From Arachidicoccus terrestris (GTDB lineage Bacteria > Bacteroidota > Bacteroidia > Chitinophagales > Chitinophagaceae), in NCBI RefSeq assembly GCF_020042345.1, contig NZ_CP083387.1, positions 2,356,001 through 2,420,000 of the forward strand: a DNA stretch of 64,000 nucleotides. Direction: 5' to 3'. Each line of letters begins with the position of its first letter. Position 1 is the first letter of the stretch. The position numbers and the translations under genes were made by a program. This document shows, in pieces, positions 15,779 through 29,349 of this stretch. Under the pieces are notes generated by a model, which did not search any database, was not told where the DNA came from, and saw nothing but the letters and a program-made list of their open reading frames with translations.

Positions 15779-17650
15779 ATGTTTCAGGAATATGATGTTA
15801 TAGTGGCTGGAGCCGGACATGCCGGAAGTGAAGCTGCTGCCGCTGCCGCTAACTTAGGTAATAAAGTGCTCCTTATTACCATGAACATGAATACGATTGC
15901 TCAAATGAGCTGTAATCCAGCTATGGGAGGAATCGCTAAAGGTCAAATAGTCCGGGAAATAGATGCAATGGGGGGTTATAGTGGCATTGTCTCAGATAAG
16001 AGCATGATCCAGTTTAGAATGTTGAATAAAAGCAAAGGTCCCGCCATGTGGAGTCCCCGCACACAAAATGACCGCATGTTGTTCGCCTTAACATGGAGAG
16101 AAATGCTTGAACATACAGAGAATCTCGACTTCTATCAGGACACAGTGCAGGGTATTCTTGTAAAAGATCAGCAAGTTATAGGCGTAAAGACTAATCTAGG
16201 CCATGAAATCAAGGCTAAATCGGTTATACTTACAAGTGGAACCTTCTTAAATGGTATTATACATATTGGCGAAAAGCAATTTGGAGGGGGCAGGGTAGCT
16301 GAAAAAAGCGCGACTGGCATTACTGAACAACTGATAAGCCTGGGTTTTCAAAGTGACAGGCTTAAAACAGGTACTCCTCCCAGGGTAGATGCCAGAAGTC
16401 TGGACTATTCAAAAATGGAAATCCAAAAAGGAGACGATGTAATCACAGGATTTTCATACCTCGAGACAGTCAATAAATTAGACCCGGCCAAACAATTGCC
16501 TTGCCATATTACTTATACAAACACTGAGGTACATGACTTATTAAAAACAGGTTTTGATCGAAGTCCAATGTATACAGGGAGAATAGAAGGAACAGGCCCC
16601 AGATACTGCCCCAGTATCGAAGATAAGATAAACCGGTTTGCTGATAAGAACCGACACCAATTGTTTGTTGAACCCGAAGGGTTCAAAACAGTCGAAATCT
16701 ATGTAAACGGGTTTTCAACTTCCCTACCGGAAGATGTACAATATAAGGCACTGTCAAAAGTACCAGGATTCGAAAATGTAAAAATGTTTCGCCCGGGTTA
16801 TGCCATTGAATACGATTATTTTCCACCTACACAGTTAAAAGCAAATCTTGAAACAAAACTTATTAAAAATCTGTTCTTTGCCGGGCAGATAAATGGAACC
16901 ACCGGATATGAAGAAGCTGCCTGTCAGGGATTAATGGCGGGTATCAATGCACATCTTGCCATATCAGAAAAGGAGCCATTAATTTTAAAAAGGAATGAAG
17001 CTTATATAGGTGTACTCATTGACGATCTGATCAATAAAGGCACTGATGAGCCCTATCGGATGTTCACCAGCAGAGCGGAATATCGAACATTATTACGGCA
17101 AGACAATGCCGATTTAAGGTTGACTGAGTTAAGCTACCAGTTAGGTTTGGCAAAAGAAGAGCGCTACCAAACAGTTCAACAGAAAAAAACGGACGTCGCA
17201 GCGATGATTGAACAGTTAAAGCAAACCTCCATTTCTCCTGAACAGATCAATCCCTATTTGGAAAAAATCGGTTCTACACCCATTAGTGAAAAGCAGAAAT
17301 TTTCTAAGATAATTCTCCGCCCTGCAGTTTCACTGGAAGATATGATCAATGAAGTAGGTATATTGAAGGATATTATTAATATTAAAAATTTAAATAATAT
17401 TCAACAATCTGAAATACAGATAAAATATGAAAGATATATAGAAAAAGAACAGGAAATTGTTGATAAAATCAATCAGATGGAATCTTTAGTAATACCCGAT
17501 TCATTTGATTATAATAAAATAACCGCATTAGGCACAGAAGCTATCCAAAAATTCAATAAAATCCGTCCAAGAACCATTGGGCAGGCAGGCAGAATAAGCG
17601 GCGTAAATCCGGCTGATATTCAAATTCTGATGGTTCATATGGGCAGGTAA
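15779..17650 (+). CDS. mnmG: tRNA uridine-5-carboxymethylaminomethyl modification enzyme MnmG (GidA)
   Basis: 623 aa, full length. With MnmE it installs the carboxymethylaminomethyl group on wobble uridine 34 of certain tRNAs, using FAD and methylene-tetrahydrofolate. Seen: the FAD-binding GAGHAGSEAA at residues 10-19, the redox region MSCNPAMGGIAKGQIVREIDAMGG, GTFLNGIIHIGEKQFGGGR, FAGQINGTTGYEEAACQGLMAG, DEPYRMFTSRAEYRTLLRQDNAD, and the C-terminal GRISGVNPADIQILMVHM. mnmE is not in the window. In many bacteria mnmG lies near the replication origin, which fits the parS sites just upstream and the DnaA-box cluster 2 kb downstream of its stop. Confidence 0.97.
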   Translation: MFQEYDVIVAGAGHAGSEAAAAAANLGNKVLLITMNMNTIAQMSCNPAMGGIAKGQIVREIDAMGGYSGIVSDKSMIQFRMLNKSKGPAMWSPRTQNDRMLFALTWREMLEHTENLDFYQDTVQGILVKDQQVIGVKTNLGHEIKAKSVILTSGTFLNGIIHIGEKQFGGGRVAEKSATGITEQLISLGFQSDRLKTGTPPRVDARSLDYSKMEIQKGDDVITGFSYLETVNKLDPAKQLPCHITYTNTEVHDLLKTGFDRSPMYTGRIEGTGPRYCPSIEDKINRFADKNRHQLFVEPEGFKTVEIYVNGFSTSLPEDVQYKALSKVPGFENVKMFRPGYAIEYDYFPPTQLKANLETKLIKNLFFAGQINGTTGYEEAACQGLMAGINAHLAISEKEPLILKRNEAYIGVLIDDLINKGTDEPYRMFTSRAEYRTLLRQDNADLRLTELSYQLGLAKEERYQTVQQKKTDVAAMIEQLKQTSISPEQINPYLEKIGSTPISEKQKFSKIILRPAVSLEDMINEVGILKDIINIKNLNNIQQSEIQIKYERYIEKEQEIVDKINQMESLVIPDSFDYNKITALGTEAIQKFNKIRPRTIGQAGRISGVNPADIQILMVHMGR

Positions 17651-18546: not shown

Positions 18547-19554
18547 TTATTTTATTAATCCTGCATTCCTGCTGATCTCCATCATACGGTCGATAGGCTT
18601 CTTGGCCGCCAGCCGCAGCGATTCATCCATTTTTATCTCCGGCAACTGGAACTTCATACACAAATACAGCTTCTCCAGCGTATTGAGTTTCATATAGGGG
18701 CAATCGTTACAGGCACAGGCATTATTGGGTGGCGCCGGAATAAAAGTTTTTGTCGGAGAATCCTTTTCCATCTGATGCAGAATCCCCGCTTCAGTCGCCA
18801 CAATAAATTCCTGTGCAGGACTCTTTTTAGCAAAATTCAATATCTGGGTCGTACTGCCGATAAAATCAGCCTCTTTTAAAATAATCTCTTCACATTCAGG
18901 GTGCGCTAATAATAGTGCCTCTGGATGCCGCTCTTTAAGGCCTAAAATCTTCTCTAAACTGAAAATCTCATGAACCATGCAGGAACCGTCCCAAAGCAGC
19001 ATATCGCGCCCCGTACGTTTGTTTATGTAAGCACCTAAATTTCTGTCCGGAGCAAATATGATCTTTTGTTCCTTAGGTACACTGTCAATGATCTTTTCCA
19101 CATTGCCACTGGTACATATGATATCACTCAGCGCTTTAATCTCTGCAGTACAATTGATGTAAGAAATAACGATGTGGTCTGGATGGGCCTCTTTAAATTT
19201 TCTAAATGCTTCAGTCGGTGCACTGTCTGCCAGAGAACAACCCGCGTTTAAATCGGGCAATAATACTTTCTTAGTCGGATTCAGGATCTTTGCTGTTTCC
19301 GCCATAAAGTGTACACCGGCAAATACAATTACATCCGCACTAGTGGTCGCTGCTTGTTGCGCGAGGCCCAGGCTATCTCCAATATAATCTGCCAGATCCT
19401 GAATATCAGCCTCCTGATAGTAATGTGCTAAGATAATGGCGTTGGTCTCTTTCTTTAGTTTTTCAATCTCCGCAAATAGATCCAGGGAAGGATCCACAGG
19501 GAGATCTAAAAAACCTTTTTTATTTAAATGCGCTTTCGCTTCTATTATGTTCAT
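18547..19554 (-). CDS. nadA: Quinolinate synthase
   Basis: 335 aa. It condenses iminoaspartate with dihydroxyacetone phosphate to quinolinate, using a [4Fe-4S] cluster, at the start of de novo NAD+ synthesis. Diagnostic segments: [42 protein letters not shown], the cysteines of LNAGCSL and [19 protein letters not shown], and the late [10 protein letters not shown] cluster region. It stands alone; its start is next to the DnaA-box region. nadD lies 4 kb away and the aspartate oxidase gene is not in the window. Confidence 0.96.
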
Positions 19555-19960
19555 AACTGCTGTAATAATTAATTATATAATTATTTATTTAAAAACCCTA
19601 TTACTATTAAGGGTGTGAATATCTGAATAAATTGATTATTCACAATCATCAAAGTTAATTACTTTTCAGTTATCAACCGTTATCCACAAAATTATCCACT
19701 CCCTGAACCCTTTTAAATACTAGCTTTATCTACAATTATCCACACTGTGGATAAACAAAGTTCAGTTTATTCACATTCACTTATCCACAGCTATGCACTG
19801 TTAATTATGATAGGACAAAAAGTTAAGAAATAGACGTTCTTTTAACCGTCCATAAAATACCGTGTATTTGTTCTAAACTTATCCACATTCGTTTGGATAA
19901 AATCGAGAGTTATACACCATATTTATAGTTATCCAGATAGGTATGTGGATTAGCGTTCAA
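19555..19960. other. oriC: Putative chromosomal replication origin (oriC): DnaA-box cluster with adjacent A/T-only stretch
   Basis: Five perfect DnaA boxes TTATCCACA lie at 19680-19688, 19736-19744, 19746-19754 (minus), 19781-19789 and 19879-19887. Two TTATTCACA boxes are at 19636-19644 and 19767-19775. One-mismatch boxes lie at 19692-19700, 19726-19734, 19910-19918, 19929-19937 and 19944-19952 (minus). On the left, 19562-19594 is almost only A and T, a good candidate unwinding element. No coding frame crosses the gap. DnaA would bind the boxes and melt the A/T stretch. The dnaA gene itself is not in the window. Confidence 0.85.
19736..19754. repeat. Head-to-head DnaA-box pair (19-bp palindrome)
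   Basis: TTATCCACA and TGTGGATAA separated by a single C, giving a perfect 19-base inverted repeat in the middle of the DnaA-box cluster. Confidence 0.9.
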
Positions 19961-20260
19961 TCAAGAATAGAGTGATCGACCCACTCACCATTAATCAAAA
20001 TTCTTCATGCCATTTATGATAATCTTTCGGTTACGAAAGTAGAGCTATCTGATGCTATAGGTCAAGGTGTAATAGGGAACCACGAACAATGCACCATTTT
20101 CGGAAAATACAAGCACCCTGTTTCGGTAAACTACCGGCTAATATTGGTTCTATTCATTATAAAGGACAACCAGGATTTTTCTAATACCGACCCGTTTTTT
20201 TGACTGTTACTGTACCTGACTTCTTCATGGTCATATAACAATCAGGTAACTGCTATGAAG
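19961..20260. other. Non-coding stretch right of the DnaA boxes
   Basis: No gene, RNA or clear promoter recognised. The DnaA-box density stops at about 19955. Confidence 0.5.
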
Positions 20261-20295
20261 AAAAGGCAGTCAGAGATATTTTCTGGCTGCCTTTT
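20261..20295 (-). terminator. Terminator of nuoA
   Basis: 14-base arms AAAAGGCAGTCAGA / TCTGGCTGCCTTTT with one wobble and a 7-base loop. It lies 25 bases past the nuoA stop codon on the minus strand. Confidence 0.8.
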
Positions 20296-20319
20296 AAAAA
20301 TTAAAAAATGAAAACGGTT

Positions 20320-20724
20320 TTAATCTTCCCACTGTAACGCTCTCTTTTTAATAATATAGACAAACCCAATAAGAAATAAACCCACAAAAAGCAGTATTTC
20401 TATAAAACCTGTCCAGGAGAGGCTTTTAAAGTTAACAGCATAGGGATAGAAGAAAATAACTTCTACGTCAAATAAAACGAAAAGGATCGCAATCAAGAAG
20501 TATTTAATGGCCATCGGCTGCCGCGCGTTACCATGGGTCGTAATACCACTGGTAAAGTTAGCGAGCTTATCATTTGTTTTGCGTTTAGGGCCTAGTAAAG
20601 AAGACACGAAGATCATCAGCGCTACGAAACCTATTGCAAAAATGATCTGTAAGGCGATAGGTAAATAATCGGTCGCGTTTTCAACTACACCCGGAGCGGC
20701 ACTTAAAATATGATTTAATGACAT
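20320..20724 (-). CDS. nuoA: NADH-quinone oxidoreductase subunit A
   Basis: 134 aa from the ATG at 20724. A start at 20793 would read through the terminator hairpin of the upstream gene and is rejected. Three membrane helices: LPIALQIIFAIGFVALMIFV, the MAIKYFLIAILFVLFDVEVIFFYPYAV segment with the conserved acidic pair DVE, and WTGFIEILLFVGLFLIGFVYII. The loop GPKRKTNDKLANFTSG matches the family's quinone-site-facing loop. It is a small membrane subunit of respiratory complex I. Only subunit A is here, bracketed by terminators on both sides, so the rest of the nuo genes must lie elsewhere. Confidence 0.93.
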   Translation of the reverse strand: MSLNHILSAAPGVVENATDYLPIALQIIFAIGFVALMIFVSSLLGPKRKTNDKLANFTSGITTHGNARQPMAIKYFLIAILFVLFDVEVIFFYPYAVNFKSLSWTGFIEILLFVGLFLIGFVYIIKKRALQWED

Positions 20725-20770
20725 ATTATACTCAGTTTGAATGGCAAAAATACGCTTTTCAGTCAAAAAC

Positions 20771-20808
20771 AAAAAACTTCGTAATCCTGTCATGGATTAC
20801 GAAGTTTT
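20771..20808 (-). terminator. Terminator after the TPR gene
   Basis: Perfect 15-base arms AAAACTTCGTAATCC / GGATTACGAAGTTTT with a 6-base loop and a T run on the minus strand, 25 bases past the stop codon at 20833. Confidence 0.9.
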
Positions 20809-20832
20809 CTATATGATTATTCCTTTTCGGAA

Positions 20833-22554
20833 TTACTTTCCACCAGTGGAATCAGTAGAGGTGGAGTCTGCATCACCTTTATGTTTTTCCAGATAACTTC
20901 TGATCTGATCGCCATATTGTTTAGCGGCCGCATTGGTTGGATCCAGCGCTAAAATCGCATCAAACATTTTCAGACCATTCGGATAGTCTCCTTTGGCGTT
21001 CACATAATAATTGGCCAGGAAACCGTACTGTGCCAGAATATAATCTTTATATTTTGCAGTATCCTTTTTCATAAAATCAATATAATCCATGATAGCGGGT
21101 ACGGCTGCAGTAGTGTCTCCGGCTTTTAATTTAGAGTCTACCAGGTATTTGTAGCCATATATCTGTGTAGGATACTTGGTCTTATAAAGTGTGAACAGTG
21201 AGTCTGCAGTCGGATAATAGGTAGAGTCAGTCTGTGCCAACTCATATGCCGCATAACCTGCATTGAAAAGAGCAGTATTGTAACCATCAGATGTACTGTC
21301 TTTTTCATCATACAGTTTTCTTAACCATTGATATTTTTCAACTGGTTTATTGGCCTTTTCCAGTGCAAAGGCGATAGAGTCTGCATAAATGGACTTTTCT
21401 GCAGGAACAGTATCCATATCGTAGGCAATTTTCAGGTATTTAACCGCTGAATCTGCCATTTCAGGAACATCTTTGTAGATAAAACCACCGAATGCATAGT
21501 CATCTGCAGTCAGATTAGAGGGCGCAACCGTTGAGAAGAATTTCTTCGCATAAGTAACGGACTGCGTGGTATCGCCTAAGCGGTGATAGTTCATCGCCAT
21601 AAGCAGGTTCAGATGAGAGAAATTGGCACAAGTACCGGCTTCCATTTCTTTACCTTTATTAATGGATTCCTGATAGCTACCTGACCGGAAAAGATAATCT
21701 GCCTGGAAATATTGTACGTTACAACCACCATCAGAATTTTTCACATATTGGTCTAAATAGGCTTTAGCCTTGTTGTAATCTGTATTTTTGAAATAATCAA
21801 AATAATCCAGATAGATAGGGGCATATGTTGCATCCGCAGCGATACCTTTTTTGTACCACTCATCCATCACGTCAAAGTTATTTTGAGAATGGAAGATTTT
21901 CCCCATGCGGTAATAGGCTGCTGCGTAGGCAGGGTTCCTTAAAATAGCATTGTTAAAAGCAACAAATGCATTACCACCCTGGTCTCCACCTAATTTTAAA
22001 AAGTTCATCCCTAAATACAGGCAAGGTTCCGGATTGGTTTTATCCAGATCCATAGCTTTCTGTAATATGGGAATAGCATAAGCGGGATCACCGATATCTC
22101 TGTTTCCATACACGCTGGCACGGCCAACAGCTGTCATGAGTTTAGCCTGCTCTTCTTCTTTATGTCTGCCCTTGAATTTATCAGCTGCAGCTAAAGCGGC
22201 CTCAAATTTCTGTTCAGCGGCCTGTTTGTTATGGTTGATAAAGTCTATTTCACCAAGACCGACCAATACCCATGGATCTTTACTCGCAGCGTATTTTTGA
22301 TACAGCGCGTTGGCTTTAGCCACACCGTCTGCTTCACCATATGTGTTATCCAAATACACCTGGCCTAACCAATAAATGGCCTGGCCATCTGGTTCTTTTG
22401 CTTTGTTTACAACATCCTGCAAAATTTTCTCGGCGTTTGTATATTTTTGGTAATACAGTGCTTTAACGCCCTCTTCCAGGCTTTGCGCCGTGGCAAATGA
22501 AATTGCACTTACAACCGCGAGAAAACTAAAAACAACCTTCTTCATTTTCTTCAT
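20833..22554 (-). CDS. Periplasmic tetratricopeptide-repeat protein
   Basis: 573 aa. A signal peptide at residues 1-23 (VVFSFLAVVSAISFATAQ) is followed by many helical TPR-like units over most of the length, for example QAIYWLGQVYLDNTYGEADG, PEPCLYLGMNFLKLGGDQGG, AAYYRMGKIFHSQNNFDVMDEWYKKG and GLKMFDAILALDPTNAAAKQYG. The C-terminal ten residues are Ser/Thr/Asp-rich. TPR proteins are scaffolds; no catalytic motif is seen. It lies 62 bases downstream of the PstS-like lipoprotein on the same strand. In other Bacteroidota such TPR and PstS-like genes, as I recall, accompany exbB/exbD/tonB genes, which suggests a role in envelope energisation, but those genes are absent here. Confidence 0.85.
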   Translation of the reverse strand: MKKMKKVVFSFLAVVSAISFATAQSLEEGVKALYYQKYTNAEKILQDVVNKAKEPDGQAIYWLGQVYLDNTYGEADGVAKANALYQKYAASKDPWVLVGLGEIDFINHNKQAAEQKFEAALAAADKFKGRHKEEEQAKLMTAVGRASVYGNRDIGDPAYAIPILQKAMDLDKTNPEPCLYLGMNFLKLGGDQGGNAFVAFNNAILRNPAYAAAYYRMGKIFHSQNNFDVMDEWYKKGIAADATYAPIYLDYFDYFKNTDYNKAKAYLDQYVKNSDGGCNVQYFQADYLFRSGSYQESINKGKEMEAGTCANFSHLNLLMAMNYHRLGDTTQSVTYAKKFFSTVAPSNLTADDYAFGGFIYKDVPEMADSAVKYLKIAYDMDTVPAEKSIYADSIAFALEKANKPVEKYQWLRKLYDEKDSTSDGYNTALFNAGYAAYELAQTDSTYYPTADSLFTLYKTKYPTQIYGYKYLVDSKLKAGDTTAAVPAIMDYIDFMKKDTAKYKDYILAQYGFLANYYVNAKGDYPNGLKMFDAILALDPTNAAAKQYGDQIRSYLEKHKGDADSTSTDSTGGK

Positions 22555-22616
22555 TTTTATTTTTTGTTTACCTGATTTCGATATGTAGGTTTATCGCTTT
22601 AAAAATTTTAATACCT

Positions 22617-23558
22617 CTATTTATCTTTGACTGATGAATCCTGATCCGGTTTGTTAATCACCTTTCGGACGACGAAATTCATCTTTGCGGGGACAAGCTC
22701 CCCCCTTCTGAAAATCAGTTGTCCTCTTTCAAAACTCATAAAATTGTAAAAGGAAGCGCCTAATCCGATATCAGCATTTTTCAGAATCCCATACAAAGGA
22801 CGTACCAAAGGATACTGGACACTGTATATTGTTGCTTGCGAAGGCTTTGCAAAGGTTCCGTCATTGCATCGCTTACATTCCACATAAGCCAGTTTTACCC
22901 GGTCTCTGTATTTTTCTGCAATTTCTGACCCCAGTATCCAACTCGAGCCAACAAAACCAATAGCATTTTTATTATCTGCTACCTGCTTTAAGACATCTTC
23001 GTTGCCACTAGTCCCTTTTACGTTAACACCAAAGTTTTTTCCATTTGTGATAGAATCCATAATAAATCTGACTGAACTGGTAGCATTATCGCCATCTAAT
23101 AGTACCTGATATTTGCCAGGGGTTTTATCAGTCAATAATTTCCGTAGCTGCTCAATTGAAAATGTACTATCATCAGCTGAACGGTTGACCACAAGTGCAA
23201 CTGCATCATAGGCCAGTACGGAGTACAATAATGGATGACCCAAAACTTTTTTGTAATAATCACTTTCCTCTTCGTTCGGGGCCCTGGTTACAAGAATCAT
23301 TTGCGTACTGTCGGATTGAAAATCTCGAAAACAGTCGGCTTCTGACTTATATTTAATTTCAATGTGCGCTTTTGGGAAAGAGGCTTCGAAAACCATGATT
23401 TGTTGATCAATTATGGGTTTAAAAGACTCGTCCACACTCACACGAAGGGTTCCTTCTTGAGGATGACTATCCTTTTTTATTTTGGATTCACAGGAAGTTA
23501 AATTCCAAAGAACGAGGCTAAAAATAAGTAGAAATTTTGTTGCACGAAAAAAAAACAT
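22617..23558 (-). CDS. PstS-like substrate-binding lipoprotein
   Basis: 313 aa. Lipoprotein signal with lipobox LTSC (Cys23). The mature protein has the two-lobed periplasmic binding-protein pattern of PstS: LRVSVDESFKPIIDQQIMVFE, DSTQMILVTRAPNEEE, VALVVNRSADDSTFSIEQLRKLLTDKTPGKY, SSVRFIMDSI, and NAIGFVGSSWI. It contains the GNEDVLKQVADNKNAIGF segment, similar to the S-G-T phosphate-binding region of PstS. No pst permease genes are nearby, so it may be a stand-alone binding protein of the type found with TonB-related genes. Probably co-transcribed with the small membrane protein upstream and the TPR protein downstream. Confidence 0.82.
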   Translation of the reverse strand: MFFFRATKFLLIFSLVLWNLTSCESKIKKDSHPQEGTLRVSVDESFKPIIDQQIMVFEASFPKAHIEIKYKSEADCFRDFQSDSTQMILVTRAPNEEESDYYKKVLGHPLLYSVLAYDAVALVVNRSADDSTFSIEQLRKLLTDKTPGKYQVLLDGDNATSSVRFIMDSITNGKNFGVNVKGTSGNEDVLKQVADNKNAIGFVGSSWILGSEIAEKYRDRVKLAYVECKRCNDGTFAKPSQATIYSVQYPLVRPLYGILKNADIGLGASFYNFMSFERGQLIFRRGELVPAKMNFVVRKVINKPDQDSSVKDK

Positions 23559-23614
23559 AAACTTTTGTTTTTTAGAAATAATCCGGTTTCTAAATTTAAC
23601 ACATATTTACAAAA

Positions 23615-23866
23615 TTAATAATCTTGTTTAATTCCCCTATATAGCCTGAATCCGCCATAAAGCGCGCATAGTCCGCCGAATAAATATTTGATGATCGGAT
23701 CTTTATCAGCCATCATTGCCTGAGTCAGCTCAAATTTATCACCGAAGAACATTAGAACTCCTACGGTCAAAATTAAAACGGCCATGACGATGTCCTTAAT
23801 TGACCGTACGTTATTATAGCGTTTTCTTTGTCTTTCCCTAACCTGACGACCCAGATCCGTATCCAT
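23615..23866 (-). CDS. Small membrane protein, two predicted helices
   Basis: 83 aa. The first 22 residues are highly charged (RQVRERQRKR), followed by hydrophobic segments at about 25-43 (DIVMAVLILTVGVLMFF) and 60-75 (YLFGGLCALYGGFRLY). No named family recognised. It sits between hemL and the PstS-like gene on the same strand (gaps 77 and 56 bases) and looks like the first gene of a three-gene unit with the PstS-like and TPR proteins. An accessory role for those two is inference only. Confidence 0.78.
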   Translation of the reverse strand: MDTDLGRQVRERQRKRYNNVRSIKDIVMAVLILTVGVLMFFGDKFELTQAMMADKDPIIKYLFGGLCALYGGFRLYRGIKQDY

Positions 23867-23943
23867 AATATATCATTTTAATAATTGTACTACAACTAAG
23901 ATGTTGATTTTGCTATATTCCATACCTGAATCTGTCAAAATAC

Positions 23944-25233
23944 TCATAATTCCTCTGCTGTCTTGCGGATGACGTCCAGCGTTTCCTCCAGATCCGACTG
24001 ACTCAGTGCGTTGCTAAGGAACCAACTTTCATAACCGGAGGGAGGTAAATGTACGCCTCTTTTTAAAAGCCCATGGAAGAACCGGGTAAACCTGCTCATG
24101 TCTGAACGGCTTGCGGAAGCAAAATCAGTTACCGGCTCCGTATTAAAAAAGAGGCTTAACATGCTACCAAATTGGTTAACCTGTACAGGAATATTCTTTT
24201 CTTTAAATATATCAATCAGCCCTTTTTGCAAAAAGGCTCCTTTTTCGTTCAATTCTGTATAGTATTCAGGATGATCCTTTAGTTCCGCAAGTAAGGTATA
24301 ACCGGCAATCATTGCCAGCGGATTACCGCTAAGGGTCCCTGCCTGATAGATATTTCCTAACGGAGCCACCTGCTCCATAATTTCTTTTTTGCCGCCAAAT
24401 GCGCCCACGGGAAGCCCTGCTCCGATCACTTTACCATAAGTGACGAGATCTGCATTAATATTGAGCCGCTCTTGTGCTCCTCCGGGCGCCAATCTGAAAC
24501 CGGTCATGACCTCATCAAAGATAAGTAAGATATTTTCCTGATCACAGATCTGACGCAGCCCTTCCAGGAACCCCGCTGCAGGCAATACACAACCCATATT
24601 ACCAGCTACCGGCTCTACAATAATTGCAGCAATTTCTCCTGCATATTGTTTTACCAGATTGCGGACCGCTTCCAGGTCGTTATAGGGAGCCGTGAGCGTA
24701 TCCAGGGCAGTACCTGCTGTGACGCCCGGCACCTCCTGGATGCCAAAAGTGGCTACGCCACTGCCTGCTTTTACCAGAAACATGTCGGCATGTCCATGGT
24801 AGCAGCCCTCGAATTTGATAAATTTATTCTTACCAGTATACCCCCTGGCTACCCGAAGAGCAGACATGCACGCCTCTGTTCCGCTATTGACCATGCGGAT
24901 CAGATCCACATTCCTGGTCAGGGATTTGATCAATTCAGCCATTTCTACCTCGAGTTCAGTCGGCGCGCCGAAAGAAGTAGAATTTGCTGCTTTTTTTTGT
25001 ATTGCGTTTACGACTGGTAAATAACTATGACCCAGGATCATAGGCCCCCAGGAAGCTATATAATCTATGTATTTCTGGCCATCCGCGTCATAGAGATAGG
25101 CGCCTTTGGCTTTTTCTATAAATATAGGGGTACCTCCGACACTTTTAAAAGCCCTGACCGGAGAATTAACGCCGCCTGGTATGGAATTTTGTGCTCTTTC
25201 AAAGAGGCGTTTGCTGGACGTGTATTCGTACAT
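23944..25233 (-). CDS. hemL: Glutamate-1-semialdehyde 2,1-aminomutase
   Basis: 429 aa, full length. A PLP enzyme converting glutamate-1-semialdehyde to 5-aminolevulinate, the last step of the C5 route to heme. Catalytic Lys268 is in VTYGKVIGAGLPVGAFGG. Other class III aminotransferase motifs: MVNSGTEACMSALRVARGYT, FEGCYHGHADMFLV, and FDEVMTGFRLAPGGAQ. It lies 34 kb from the hem operon at the right end of the window, whose hemA supplies its substrate. A TACATTTG -7 element precedes it at 25275-25282. Confidence 0.97.
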   Translation of the reverse strand: MYEYTSSKRLFERAQNSIPGGVNSPVRAFKSVGGTPIFIEKAKGAYLYDADGQKYIDYIASWGPMILGHSYLPVVNAIQKKAANSTSFGAPTELEVEMAELIKSLTRNVDLIRMVNSGTEACMSALRVARGYTGKNKFIKFEGCYHGHADMFLVKAGSGVATFGIQEVPGVTAGTALDTLTAPYNDLEAVRNLVKQYAGEIAAIIVEPVAGNMGCVLPAAGFLEGLRQICDQENILLIFDEVMTGFRLAPGGAQERLNINADLVTYGKVIGAGLPVGAFGGKKEIMEQVAPLGNIYQAGTLSGNPLAMIAGYTLLAELKDHPEYYTELNEKGAFLQKGLIDIFKEKNIPVQVNQFGSMLSLFFNTEPVTDFASASRSDMSRFTRFFHGLLKRGVHLPPSGYESWFLSNALSQSDLEETLDVIRKTAEEL

Positions 25234-25274
25234 AATATCTGAATCGTTGTCGTTCTAAATCGATTATAAGTCAG

Positions 25275-25282
25275 CAAATGTA
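25275..25282 (-). promoter_or_regulatory. Putative -7 element of hemL (TACATTTG)
   Basis: Exact TAnnTTTG match on the minus strand, 42 bases before the hemL start. Confidence 0.55.
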
Positions 25283-25333
25283 CGCTATAATTCAGGACAA
25301 CCTATGCATCAGGCGCATCCTTCTGGTGTATTG

Positions 25334-25930
25334 TTATTCCGGTTTGGCTTCTTTTAACGCTTTTTCAATTCTTTTGTCGGGGACCAGCCAAATGATGGCG
25401 CTGAGCGCATAAAAGGCAATGGACAGCCATGGGATAAAAAAGGCACTGGCAATGCCGGCTATGTAGATAAACGGAGAGGCCTGTTCTTTAAGCGTTTTAT
25501 TTTCGACTGCCTTGGCAAGCAGGCCGCTGCGGTCATTGGCATGGATCAGACAGTTCAGTAAGATGACCCAGGCAATTGCCGCCATAAACAGCACAAAGCC
25601 ATATAAGGCCAGTGGCGCTGCTGATGTGTGGTTTTCACCGACCCACGCCGTGGTAAAAGGAAATAAAGATAACCAGAAGAGCAAATGCAGATTCGCCCAA
25701 AGGACCTTTCCATTTACAACTTTGCAGCATTGTAACATATGGTGGTGGTTATTCCAGTATATCCCCACATAGATAAAACTGAGTATATAGCTAAGGAATT
25801 TTGGAACCAATGGCAGCAGAGCGCTAAAATGGCCATCACCCGACTCAGGAATTTTGAGTTCCAGTACCATGATTGTGATGATAATGGCCAGCACACCATC
25901 GCTGAAGGCTTCCAGTCTATTCTTTTCCAT
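25334..25930 (-). CDS. TMEM175-family (DUF1211) potassium-channel-like membrane protein
   Basis: 198 aa, six hydrophobic segments. The signature R-x-x-x-FSDGVLAIIIT (residues 5-18) is the ion-filter helix motif of bacterial TMEM175 channels. Later segments include YILSFIYVGIYWNNHHHMLQ and LWANLHLLFWLSLFPFTTAWVG, as in the family. Bacterial members have one six-helix repeat per chain and form tetrameric K+-leak channels. The physiological role here is unknown. A near-consensus TATATTTC box lies upstream on the minus strand. Monocistronic. Confidence 0.88.
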   Translation of the reverse strand: MEKNRLEAFSDGVLAIIITIMVLELKIPESGDGHFSALLPLVPKFLSYILSFIYVGIYWNNHHHMLQCCKVVNGKVLWANLHLLFWLSLFPFTTAWVGENHTSAAPLALYGFVLFMAAIAWVILLNCLIHANDRSGLLAKAVENKTLKEQASPFIYIAGIASAFFIPWLSIAFYALSAIIWLVPDKRIEKALKEAKPE

Positions 25931-26023
25931 GTATATTAATCACTTACGGTGAGGAATTTAACCCTAAATTAGCCGAAATATAGCAATATTGTATCTTTTG
26001 ACAGAAGAATCTGGCCGCGGCGT

Positions 26024-26353
26024 TTACCATTTGTGCGGATCATCCTGCGGGTCTTCAGTTTCATCTTCCTGCAATAACCGGTCGAGTTTTGTTTGTAAGC
26101 TTTGCAGTTTTTCCTCGGTTTGCTGCATTTCAATGAGGAATTCTCCCGCTTTATTCTGTTCTGTCGCCAACCAGAGTAAGGCCATCGAAACATAATCTTG
26201 CATGTCCTTACCGGCAAACTTGCTTTTGTATTCCATGACTTTATCATTGACCATCTTAACCGTTTTACGAACGATCTCCTCATCGGCCTTTTTGGTTTTT
26301 AGCCGGAAGGTTCGATCTCCGATGAGGACATTAATGATAATGATATCAGTCAT
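26024..26353 (-). CDS. zapA: Cell division protein ZapA
   Basis: 109 aa. The N-terminal domain IIINVLIGDRTFRLKTKKADEEIVRKTVKMVNDKV is typical ZapA, followed by a coiled coil (about residues 65-95) and an acidic tail. ZapA cross-links FtsZ filaments and promotes Z-ring assembly. It begins 4 bases after the stop of a coiled-coil gene and is the last gene of the pheT unit. I did not recognise a 6S RNA in the short gap after it. Confidence 0.88.
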   Translation of the reverse strand: MTDIIIINVLIGDRTFRLKTKKADEEIVRKTVKMVNDKVMEYKSKFAGKDMQDYVSMALLWLATEQNKAGEFLIEMQQTEEKLQSLQTKLDRLLQEDETEDPQDDPHKW

Positions 26354-26357
26354 ATTA

Positions 26358-26642
26358 TCAGGCGTCTAAAAGTGTAAGGCATTTATTGATTTCTTTCAGG
26401 TACTGATCGATGCGGTTTTGTAGCAACTGTTGCTGGTGCTGGTCCATTGTTTTAGTAGTGCTGATAATACCCGCGTCGAGTTTTAACTGTAAGGCCTCAC
26501 AAGCCTTCTGACTTTTAGCCAGTGCTGTTTCAGTTTCGGATAAGCTGTTTTTCAACTGCTTATTCTCTTTTTGCAACAACTGATACTTTTTAAGGAGTTG
26601 CTCCAGTTTATCTTCCAGATTTTTAAGCGTGGTCTGCTCCAT
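26358..26642 (-). CDS. Small coiled-coil protein upstream of zapA
   Basis: 94 aa, almost entirely heptad-like (LEDKLEQLLKKYQLLQKENK, then LKNSLSETETALAKSQKACE). No signal peptide. Its size, coiled-coil nature and tight coupling to zapA suggest a ZapB-like FtsZ-ring accessory, but sequence similarity to ZapB is not evident, so this is inference. It lies 62 bases downstream of pheT. Confidence 0.78.
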   Translation of the reverse strand: MEQTTLKNLEDKLEQLLKKYQLLQKENKQLKNSLSETETALAKSQKACEALQLKLDAGIISTTKTMDQHQQQLLQNRIDQYLKEINKCLTLLDA

Positions 26643-26704
26643 GATAAAAAGTGTTTAAAGTTATTGCCTTATTTATATTCTGCAGTGCTTGAAGCACGCA
26701 GGCG

Positions 26705-29122
26705 CTATTTTCGGATTTCTGCTTCTAATTGTTTCTCGAACCCTGTTATGAGTTTGATCATCATATGATCAATTTCTTTATCTGTCAGCGTTTTTTGCTC
26801 ATCCAGGAAGGCAAAGTTAATAGCCAGAGACTTCTTCCCTTTACCAAGTTTATCATTTTCAAAGACGTCAAATAAACGGGTCTCTTTAAGTAAAGGTAAG
26901 TTGGTTTTTTTAATAACCTCCAGAATCTGATCATAATGAACGCTATTATCCAATACCAAGGCCAAGTCTCTATAGACAGTCGGGAACTTAGAAACTTCTT
27001 TATAAGTAATCTTTTTATTTTCCTTTAATGAAATTAATGTGCCAAAATCCAGGTCCACAAAAAATACCGGGACCTTGATTCCAAACCGCTCTCTTTTAGC
27101 GGTACTGATGGTTTGGATTTCTATGACTTTCTTTTTGTCGGCCGCGACTTCAATGAAGCCGGATTCTGGCAGTATGGTGAATTTAATCTGGGTAAATCCG
27201 CATAACTGCAATAATGCATAAGCCAGGCCCTTTGCCTGATAAATAGTATAGGCCGTCCCTTTTTCAGACCAGAGATCCTCATGATCTTTACCGGTAATGT
27301 AGATGGCCAGGTGTTCTTTTTCCTGATACTGCCCTACGCCCGTGGTACTATAGGTTTTGCCAAACTCAAAAAACTGAAGATTATCATTTTTACGATTAAT
27401 ATTATATGAGAGAGACTCCAGACCGGTCTCAATCATAGACGGTCGCATGACATCCAGATCTGCACTAAGATTATTGATCATTTTGACCACCGACTGCAAG
27501 GTCTGTTCATTATAATACTTACTGTCTGTAATGGAATTGGTCATGATCTCATTAAAACCTCTTCCCACCAGAAACCCCGCTAACTTTTCTTTGAGATCTT
27601 CTTTAAGGCCATTGGCATCTATTGCCGGAGTAATTGTAATAGAGCTGGGAATATCAATATTATCCAGACCATCAATTCTCAGGATCTCCTCTACGATATC
27701 GGCCGGCAAGCTGATATCGGGCTTACTGTAAGGAACGGCCACCCAGACTTCATCCATGCCTTCCTTGATTTTTTCAAATCCGAGGGCTTCCAGAACATTA
27801 ATAATGGTGTCTTGATGATAGTTTTTGCCACTTAATTTTTTAAGGTAATGGTATTTTAAAGCTACCTGCGTTTTTTCCTTCGGTGTAGGATACACATCTT
27901 TGATCTCTGAACTGATCTGGCCTCCGGCAATTTCCCTGATCATCATCGCAGCCCGTTTCAGGACGTATACTGTATTTGAAATATCTACGCCTTTTTCAAA
28001 ACGGGAAGCGGCGTCAGTACGCAGTCCGTGGCGAACCGACGTTTTTCTGATCGAAGTAGGATTGAATACAGCGCTTTCCAGGAAAATCTCTGTAGTTGTT
28101 TCTTTTACGCCGCTTTTTTTACCGCCGAATACGCCGGCAATACACATAGGCGCCTCACTGTTGCAGATCATCAGGTCTTCATCAGACAAAGTACGGATCT
28201 TGCCATCCAGTGTTTCAAATGAATAGCCCTTATCCAGTGTTTTGACCTGGATCTGATTGCCGGTAACGGCCGCCAGGTCAAATGCGTGCAACGGCTGCCC
28301 GGTTTCATGCAAAATGAAGTTGGTAATATCAACGATGTTATTAATAGGCCTTTGACCGATGGCTTTCAGCTTTTGCTGCAACCACTCTGGTGATGGACCG
28401 ACTTTGACACCAGACAGAACAATACCTGCGTACCGGGGACACAATTCAGGGTTGTCTATTTGAATATCAATATTGTGACTGTAACTGTCCGGTTTAAAAC
28501 CATTCACAGAAGGTGTCTTTATCTTAAAGGTTCCGCTGTTGTGGCGGGTCAGGTAAGCGGTAACATCGCGGGCAACCCCCATATGACTCTGGGCGTCCAT
28601 GCGGTTAGGTGTCAGGCCGATCTCATATATGTGATCGGTATAAACCGGAAAAATATCTGTTGCCGGAATGCCTATTTTGGTATCGGCAGGGAGCACCAGG
28701 ATCCCATCATGGCTTTCTCCTAAACCGAGTTCGTCCTCTGCACAGAGCATGCCCATACTTTCCTCATCCCTGATCTTCGCCTTTTTTATGGTCAGCGCCT
28801 CTCCTTCTTTATTATATAAGGTGGTCCCGATGGTGGCGACCAATACTTTTTGGCCTGCCGCAACATTGGGTGCTCCGCAGACGATATTCAGCGGCGTTTC
28901 CTGTCCTATATTTACCGTAGTAAGCTTTAGCTTATCGGCCCCCGGATGCGGAACGCAGGTTAGCACCTCTCCTACTACGATTCCCTCAAGGCCGCCTTTG
29001 ATGCTCTGGTAATCTTCCAGGCTTTCTACTTCCAGTCCGATGGAGGTTAAAATTCTGGAGAGTTTTTCAGGATCTAATTTTTCCGGTAAATATTCACTTA
29101 ACCAATTATATGAAATCGTCAT
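26705..29122 (-). CDS. pheT: Phenylalanine-tRNA ligase beta subunit
   Basis: 805 aa from the ATG at 29122 (MTISYNWLSEYLPEKLD, the family's standard N-terminus). A start at 29197 would lie upstream of the likely promoter. Domains in order: B1/tRNA-binding (EMAP-like, about residues 40-150; VVGEVLTCVPHPGADKLKLT), B3/B4 editing region (about 210-390), B5 (about 400-475), a core similar to the catalytic fold, and the C-terminal ferredoxin-like anticodon-binding domain (about 710-805; SKFPTVYRDLALVLD). It acts as an alpha2-beta2 tetramer with PheS, whose gene is not in the window. A TATATTTG -7 element lies 47 bases upstream. Confidence 0.97.
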   Translation of the reverse strand: MTISYNWLSEYLPEKLDPEKLSRILTSIGLEVESLEDYQSIKGGLEGIVVGEVLTCVPHPGADKLKLTTVNIGQETPLNIVCGAPNVAAGQKVLVATIGTTLYNKEGEALTIKKAKIRDEESMGMLCAEDELGLGESHDGILVLPADTKIGIPATDIFPVYTDHIYEIGLTPNRMDAQSHMGVARDVTAYLTRHNSGTFKIKTPSVNGFKPDSYSHNIDIQIDNPELCPRYAGIVLSGVKVGPSPEWLQQKLKAIGQRPINNIVDITNFILHETGQPLHAFDLAAVTGNQIQVKTLDKGYSFETLDGKIRTLSDEDLMICNSEAPMCIAGVFGGKKSGVKETTTEIFLESAVFNPTSIRKTSVRHGLRTDAASRFEKGVDISNTVYVLKRAAMMIREIAGGQISSEIKDVYPTPKEKTQVALKYHYLKKLSGKNYHQDTIINVLEALGFEKIKEGMDEVWVAVPYSKPDISLPADIVEEILRIDGLDNIDIPSSITITPAIDANGLKEDLKEKLAGFLVGRGFNEIMTNSITDSKYYNEQTLQSVVKMINNLSADLDVMRPSMIETGLESLSYNINRKNDNLQFFEFGKTYSTTGVGQYQEKEHLAIYITGKDHEDLWSEKGTAYTIYQAKGLAYALLQLCGFTQIKFTILPESGFIEVAADKKKVIEIQTISTAKRERFGIKVPVFFVDLDFGTLISLKENKKITYKEVSKFPTVYRDLALVLDNSVHYDQILEVIKKTNLPLLKETRLFDVFENDKLGKGKKSLAINFAFLDEQKTLTDKEIDHMMIKLITGFEKQLEAEIRK

Positions 29123-29168
29123 GGATCTAATAGCTTTAATTCGTGCGGCATGCCGCTGAAATAGTTTG

Positions 29169-29176
29169 CAAATATA
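29169..29176 (-). promoter_or_regulatory. Putative -7 element of pheT (TATATTTG)
   Basis: Exact TAnnTTTG match on the minus strand. It supports the pheT start at 29122 rather than 29197. Confidence 0.55.
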
Positions 29177-29349
29177 AGTGTAATTCGTGAATGCCACCAG
29201 AAGTTCCTATAACCGGTCCTTCAGAATAAGTTGGTTTCTGAGGGCTTGAAATCGGACTTATTGTACCGCGCGTCCGACGTTTCACTGAAAAATTTCATAA
29301 TTTCACAGCTCAAGACAATGTTCTACGATTAATCAAACAAAATAATAGG

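Follow-up and report, generated by a model that had tools for sequence, protein, structure and literature searches.

A probable chromosomal replication origin with a DnaA-trio-like array upstream of nadA in Arachidicoccus terrestris and its relatives in the Chitinophagaceae

Introduction

Is the gap between nadA and the adjacent gene for a subunit of NADH-quinone oxidoreductase the site where replication of the Arachidicoccus terrestris chromosome starts, and if so, by which element would the DNA be opened there? The gap lies in the stretch of 64,000 bases that was analysed here (hereafter, the window; C1:2356001-2420000 of a genome that consists of one contig of 4,901,925 bases), and positions without the contig prefix count from the first base of the window. 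A first-pass annotation of this DNA proposed that the gap was the probable origin, and pointed to a short sequence with a three-base period that might be related to DnaA-trios, although its strand and phase did not seem to fit.

The origins of Bacteroidetes are commonly far from dnaA, as already published, and those predicted with DoriC/Ori-Finder, for example that of Prevotella intermedia, consist, like the locus described here, of a box cluster at a skew transition; the passages on these origins do not mention trios (PMC4755523). In the trio literature, the consensus is 3'-GAT-5', the rule used to search for the basal unwinding system (BUS) calls for a box at most 16 bp from at least three 3'-NAN-5' repeats, and the spacer to the better box peaks at 10-13 bp (PMC8287927). 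A search of the main texts of the open literature yielded nothing on DnaA-trios in Bacteroidetes or on DnaA boxes and oriC in Chitinophaga.

The DnaA-box cluster and its genomic setting

The gap (19555-20319) is free of genes, as had been claimed, with no open reading frame of at least 80 amino acids in the program-made list. Of the two flanking assignments, that of nadA on the left (18547-19554, minus strand) stands, with a match to NCBIfam TIGR00550 above the cut-off, whereas the gene on the right (20320-20724, minus strand), previously called nuoA, matches the NADH-quinone oxidoreductase subunit A family (nuoA/ndhC-like) only below the curated cut-offs of the models, with a best E-value of 1e-25. 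About 2 kb to the left of the putative origin is mnmG (gidA; 15779-17650, plus strand; NCBIfam TIGR00136, above the cut-off), a frequent neighbour of bacterial origins; a comparison of mnmG with plasmids was uninformative about the origin. The Rfam matches in the 64-kb window are two tRNAs only. Over the 9 kb to the right of the putative origin (20320-29197), the main ORFs are on the minus strand and hence would face the fork leaving it. The dnaA gene itself (C1:4315901-4317289) is 1.94 Mb away from the box cluster and ∼0.24 Mb from the inferred terminus.

The 406 bases at 19555-19960 contain seven exact TTATNCACA boxes and 15 boxes with at most one mismatch, compared with means of 0.04 and 0.95 and maxima of two and five, respectively, in 2000 dinucleotide shuffles of the same bases, a density far above chance. 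All the boxes reported in the first pass, five perfect ones, two of a variant form and several with one mismatch, were located. The exact boxes are five TTATCCACA (19680-19688, 19736-19744, 19781-19789 and 19879-19887 on the plus strand, and 19746-19754 on the minus strand, facing the box at 19736) and two TTATTCACA (19636-19644 and 19767-19775, plus strand). A sequence scan adds the one-mismatch boxes TTATCCACT (19692-19700) and TTATCTACA (19726-19734), both on the plus strand, four more within 19892-19952 (starting at 19892 and 19944 on the minus strand, and at 19910 and 19929 on the plus strand) and two tandem boxes that are described below. In addition to these 15, a one-mismatch box overlaps the start of nadA, TTATGAACA (19548-19556, minus strand).

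In the 2.06 Mb of chromosome that were sampled, only one further place has at least three exact boxes per 400 bp, namely C1:2763571-2763805 (loci L058, L106 and L107), with five exact boxes within 235 bp, the nearest of them 89 bp upstream of mraZ. By box content, this cluster could itself be taken for the true origin, with the nadA-nuoA boxes, there or if the origin were at yet another place, acting as a DnaA titration site; this is highly improbable, given that the cluster sits 388 kb inside the positive-skew arc described in the next section and that no run of four TAN triplets was found around it, in 2763350-2763799. Possible roles for the mraZ boxes are DnaA control of the cell division and wall cluster, of which mraZ is the repressor, and titration.

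GC skew and the A/T stretch

GC skew, which had been named as a check on the proposed origin, was computed for 100 stretches of 20 kb and the window, 2.06 Mb of the 4.9 Mb in total. Values are predominantly negative as far as 2.37 Mb and predominantly positive from there to ∼4.55 Mb, after which they turn negative again. When a two-arc model is fitted to 412 pieces of 5 kb (R2 of 0.55), the skew becomes positive at ∼2.381-2.386 Mb and negative again near 4.56 Mb; the first piece of the positive arc has its centre at 2.3885 Mb in the best fit and at 2.3835 Mb in the next best. Positive skew is found in 81% of the 184 pieces of this arc, and negative skew in 89% of the 228 pieces outside it. The box cluster is at 2.37556-2.37596 Mb, so that the negative-to-positive change falls 5-13 kb to its right, an offset that may be explained by the location of the main ORFs at 20.3-29.2 kb on the minus strand. 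Within the window, the skew has a local minimum near 28.5-30 kb, with no exact box in its vicinity. In two relatives (G018 and G067), the mean skew on either side of the corresponding element has the expected signs, in noisy data where three of the 10 and four of the 10 samples, respectively, are of the wrong sign.

Beside the boxes, positions 19563-19595 consist exclusively of A and T (33 of 33), which makes this stretch a probable DNA unwinding element; the earlier description of a near-pure A/T run was correct except for its limits (19562-19594), which were off by one base. By nearest-neighbour energy, the least stable 35 bp of the entire 64-kb window begin at 19560; with windows of 50 and 80 bp, other places in the 64 kb rank above the A/T stretch.

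A trio-like array next to tandem boxes

Between the A/T stretch and the exact boxes, the plus strand reads TAT-TAC-TAT-TAA (19599-19610), a GGG spacer (19611-19613), TGTGAATAT and then, at an offset of 8, TCTGAATAA. The last two are one-mismatch boxes on the minus strand, the array-proximal ATATTCACA (19614-19622), in the place of B. subtilis box 7, and TTATTCAGA (19622-19630), in the place of box 6. The sequence singled out in the first pass, CTATTACTATTA, is indeed at 19598-19609. The misfit of strand and phase noted at the time holds for a reading as CTA/TTA on the opposite strand but not for a plus-strand array of 5'-TAN-3' triplets that runs towards the boxes.

This orientation was compared with the dnaA-dnaN gaps of five Firmicutes (Priestia, S. 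epidermidis, Acetoanaerobium, Latilactobacillus and Aerococcus), the geometry of B. subtilis being taken from PMC8287927, PMC10721633 and PMC6669920. In all five, a TAG/TAA array runs 5' to 3' into a 4-nt spacer that is followed by a reverse box, and a second reverse box is at offset 8 in three gaps, at offset 9 in Latilactobacillus and weak in Aerococcus. The strand of the array in the window likewise runs 5' to 3' into a spacer and reverse tandem boxes, so that the puzzle of the trios appears to be resolvable: the polarity matches in five of the five gaps and the register in three. Polarity is a fair criterion because its reversal stopped opening in H. pylori (PMC8235120) and because reversing boxes 6/7 inactivated the unwinding region of B. 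subtilis (PMC6669920). By the search rule of PMC8287927, the array also qualifies: it has four TAN repeats, and of the two one-mismatch boxes, the first is at a distance of 3 bp and the second at 11 bp. It does not conform to the consensus trio (3'-GAT-5', with G or A at the first base), and the box-proximal base, at position -4, is A. Opening of the BUS type in the canonical direction appears likely.

The alternative is an origin in the same gap in which the array is a consensus trio (3'-RAT-5') on the minus strand, with unwinding that would proceed rightwards or start at a left-hand box. Read in this way, CTA-YTA-YTA-TTA becomes 3'-GAT-RAT-RAT-AAT-5', a perfect match to the consensus, and CCCTATTACTATTA resembles the spacer plus trios of Firmicutes. 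However, on its left side the array has a single box within the gap, TTATGAACA, with one mismatch and at a distance of 42 bp, beyond the 16 bp of the search rule (PMC8287927), the C bases on the left are less conserved than the G bases on the right, the A/T stretch would come to lie on the box side, and the polarity would be the one that stopped opening in H. pylori (PMC8235120). The minus-strand array is, thus, unlikely.

For the plus-strand array, there are two possible frames. Taken as 3'-YAT-5' (the TAN frame), it leaves a spacer of 3 nt, compared with 4 nt in the five Firmicutes; taken as 3'-ATY-5', it leaves the customary 4 nt. In the latter frame, each triplet has a pyrimidine in 45-50 of the 50 loci analysed below and the central adenine is lost; a trio without the central adenine was raised as a possibility in PMC8287927.

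Conservation of the element

The A. terrestris NadA protein has matches in 135 of the 147 Chitinophagaceae genomes, from which 30 loci were drawn (L108-L137); together with 21 of 80 named loci, assigned to the family by record name, these yield an alignment of 51 loci (50 of them distinct, 49 passing the anchor score for the table of columns) that was anchored on the box side only, without use of the array. The columns read TAY-TAY-TAT-TAN-GGS-TGTGNAT, followed by a second box of the GGATAA type. The T and A of the array are present at 42-49 of the 49 loci and the third base of the triplets is degenerate (in the box-proximal one, 19 G, 16 C, nine T and five A, n = 49); in the spacer, the first G is conserved at 44 loci and the second at 34, and in the tandem boxes, the fixed positions of TGTGNAT at 42-48 and the GGA-A core at 43-49. 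All four T-A steps at period 3 were detected in 42 of the 50 distinct loci and three of the steps in six more, compared with all four steps in 0-2 loci at 30 other offsets; the remaining two (L113 and L147) are mis-anchored, yet contain an array-like sequence elsewhere. The array is nearly free of guanine: in 48 of the 50 loci, G is missing from all 11 core positions (-15 to -5), and the box-proximal base, at -4, is G in 20.

The surrounding sequence is conserved in kind as well. Sequence rich in boxes and flanked by A/T is a recurrent feature upstream of nadA in the Chitinophagaceae: in each of L108-L137, 1 kb of upstream DNA contains 4-15 boxes with at most one mismatch, compared with 0-5 when read backwards, and the loci with Saprospiraceae names have 0-3 boxes. 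The exact pattern TAYTAYTATTANGRNTGT has 83 matches in 78 of the 147 family genomes and is absent from 69; 69 matches, in 69 genomes, precede nadA by <250 nt and are all oriented alike with respect to it, and the backward control has 19 matches in 17 genomes. Among the 14 matches that are not just upstream of nadA, six were inspected, of which four do not look real and two do (G057 and G134). These two genomes have no NadA match, yet contain the array, an A/T-rich left side and nine and seven boxes, respectively, with at most one mismatch, which implies that the element follows the boxes rather than nadA.

The latter observation bears on the possibility that the element serves nadA as a DnaA-controlled promoter or leader and is not an unwinding site. 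DnaA boxes can serve as regulator sites, and in most loci, ∼36-51 nt separate the array from the matched start of NadA, but in others the distance is 61-146 nt (this set of distances is selected on the array and includes some chance matches). With the array and boxes kept in two genomes that have no NadA match, and with the skew change falling here, a nadA promoter or leader is very unlikely. The boxes, the A/T stretch, the skew change and the recurrence in the family all support the original proposal, and, as judged from these sequence features, the nadA-nuoA gap is very probably the chromosomal oriC.

Outside the family, the exact pattern is scarce. In a search of 296 genomes of the phylum, TAYTAYTATTANGRNTGT was found in 14, namely seven of the 11 family members and seven of the 285 others, where the backward control matches 12. 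One of the seven, in a genome of another family of the same class (G253; L252), looks real, since tandem boxes accompany the array and its spacer; the remaining six matches, with 0-2 boxes, do not. In the Sphingobacteriaceae (19 nadA gaps chosen by record name, two of which, L167 and L171, share one sequence), a related element with fewer boxes is found upstream of nadA (L161-L208): 13 gaps read TTATTAG or TTGTTAG-NN-TGT, one (L174) TTAG-NN-TGT, four TTAAGG-TGT and one neither. The base next to the box is G (TAG) in 14 of the 19 and A (TAA) in four, as in the consensus. These gaps suggest that the Sphingobacteriaceae origin may also be located at nadA.

DnaA residues facing the trio

In the cryo-EM structure of B. 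subtilis DnaA, the first trio base (G18) is assigned to Arg202 and Glu228, the adenine to Asn187 and Glu183, the third base to Asn196 and a spacer phosphate to Lys222 (PMC10721633). With the B. subtilis chain of 8btg as the reference for alignment, in all 15 Chitinophagaceae DnaAs, position 202 is Ile, position 228 is Ala and Lys222 is replaced by Ala, with Asn187 and Glu183 retained (G128, a partial match, was excluded). Sixteen further Bacteroidia (15 genomes and Parabacteroides) likewise lack Arg/Lys at 202 and Glu at 228, so that Arg202 and Glu228 are absent from 31 of 31 Bacteroidia DnaAs, whereas all 14 of the DnaAs compared from outside the phylum, those of B. subtilis, T. maritima and A. 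aeolicus and 11 named ones, have both Arg/Lys at 202 and Glu at 228. Among the best 30 of 61 further genomes of the phylum, none has Arg/Lys at 202 and 17 have Glu at 228. Asn187 is not universal, being found in six of the 15 further Bacteroidia genomes and in four of the best 30 of 61. Two side observations concern the DnaA matches themselves. Several genomes of the family and class contain frames of ∼150-216 amino acids that match the DnaA model only C-terminally (L296, L358 and further weak matches), and in G447, the genome of L180, the match is split into two parts, the first of which contains stops, perhaps a broken or misread gene.

The loss of the guanine pocket (Arg202/Glu228) and the nearly guanine-free array of the Chitinophagaceae could mean that Bacteroidia use a different trio code, a tentative suggestion that we consider somewhat less probable than its converse. 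In H. pylori, changing the first and third positions of the trios stopped opening (PMC8235120). The paucity of guanine is a firm observation on the sequence; that the array is read by a changed DnaA pocket is offered as a hypothesis. A simple co-variation of trio base and pocket is weakened by the Sphingobacteriaceae, which keep TAG beside the box in 14 of the 19 gaps, yet Arg202 and Glu228 are lacking in two DnaAs that were assigned to this family because the corresponding NadA proteins are 94% and 81% identical to that of a Pedobacter. A connection between the shorter spacer and the loss of Lys222 was dropped because G253 has the same array and spacer and a DnaA that retains Lys222.

Discussion

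The explanation that accounts best for the entire set of observations, and a very probable one, is that the gap is oriC, where DnaA would be passed to the tandem boxes and then along the array, opening the A/T stretch. In this mechanism, DnaA would bind the strong boxes at 19636-19887 and be passed from these to the two weak tandem boxes at 19614-19630; a DnaA oligomer, binding the array as a single strand, would then run 5'-ward on the plus strand over 19610-19599 and open the A/T stretch at 19563-19595, so that the helicase could be loaded, as in the B. subtilis BUS. Replication would, accordingly to this scheme, start at the gap.

The likeness to the B. subtilis BUS extends to the order and polarity of the elements, the period of 3, the tandem reverse boxes, the GC-rich spacer and the flanking A/T stretch. 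The differences are that the trios in the window are TAY/TAT/TAN rather than TAG/TAA, that the spacer in the TAN frame is 3 nt rather than 4, that the putative oriC is 1.94 Mb from dnaA and that the A. terrestris DnaA lacks Arg202, Glu228 and Lys222. With the oriC of E. coli, the locus shares the proximity to mnmG, the distance from dnaA and an A/T unwinding element beside a reverse box. The BUS score of E. coli is relatively weak (PMC8287927), whereas the array in the window is strictly of period 3. The H. pylori oriC2 also has degenerate trios beside the proximal box, with opening that starts 3 nt from the box, but its trios keep the G in the first position (3'-GAT-5' and 3'-GAC-5') (PMC8235120). 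Without the consensus guanines, the array of the Chitinophagaceae would be a variant of the trio.

The distance between dnaA and the array is 0.74-3.0 Mb in eight relatives, G018 and G067 among them (by subtraction of coordinates, with contigs taken as circles and some sizes rounded). In one of these, G114, the record begins at dnaA, yet the putative origin element is 0.74 Mb away. In a family with the origin far from dnaA, as in the genome of A. terrestris and these eight relatives, the element predicts the site of DNA opening, and it can mark origins in genomes that have been rotated to dnaA. If DnaA does read this guanine-poor array, a change in the pocket of the initiator can be accompanied by one in its single-strand code.
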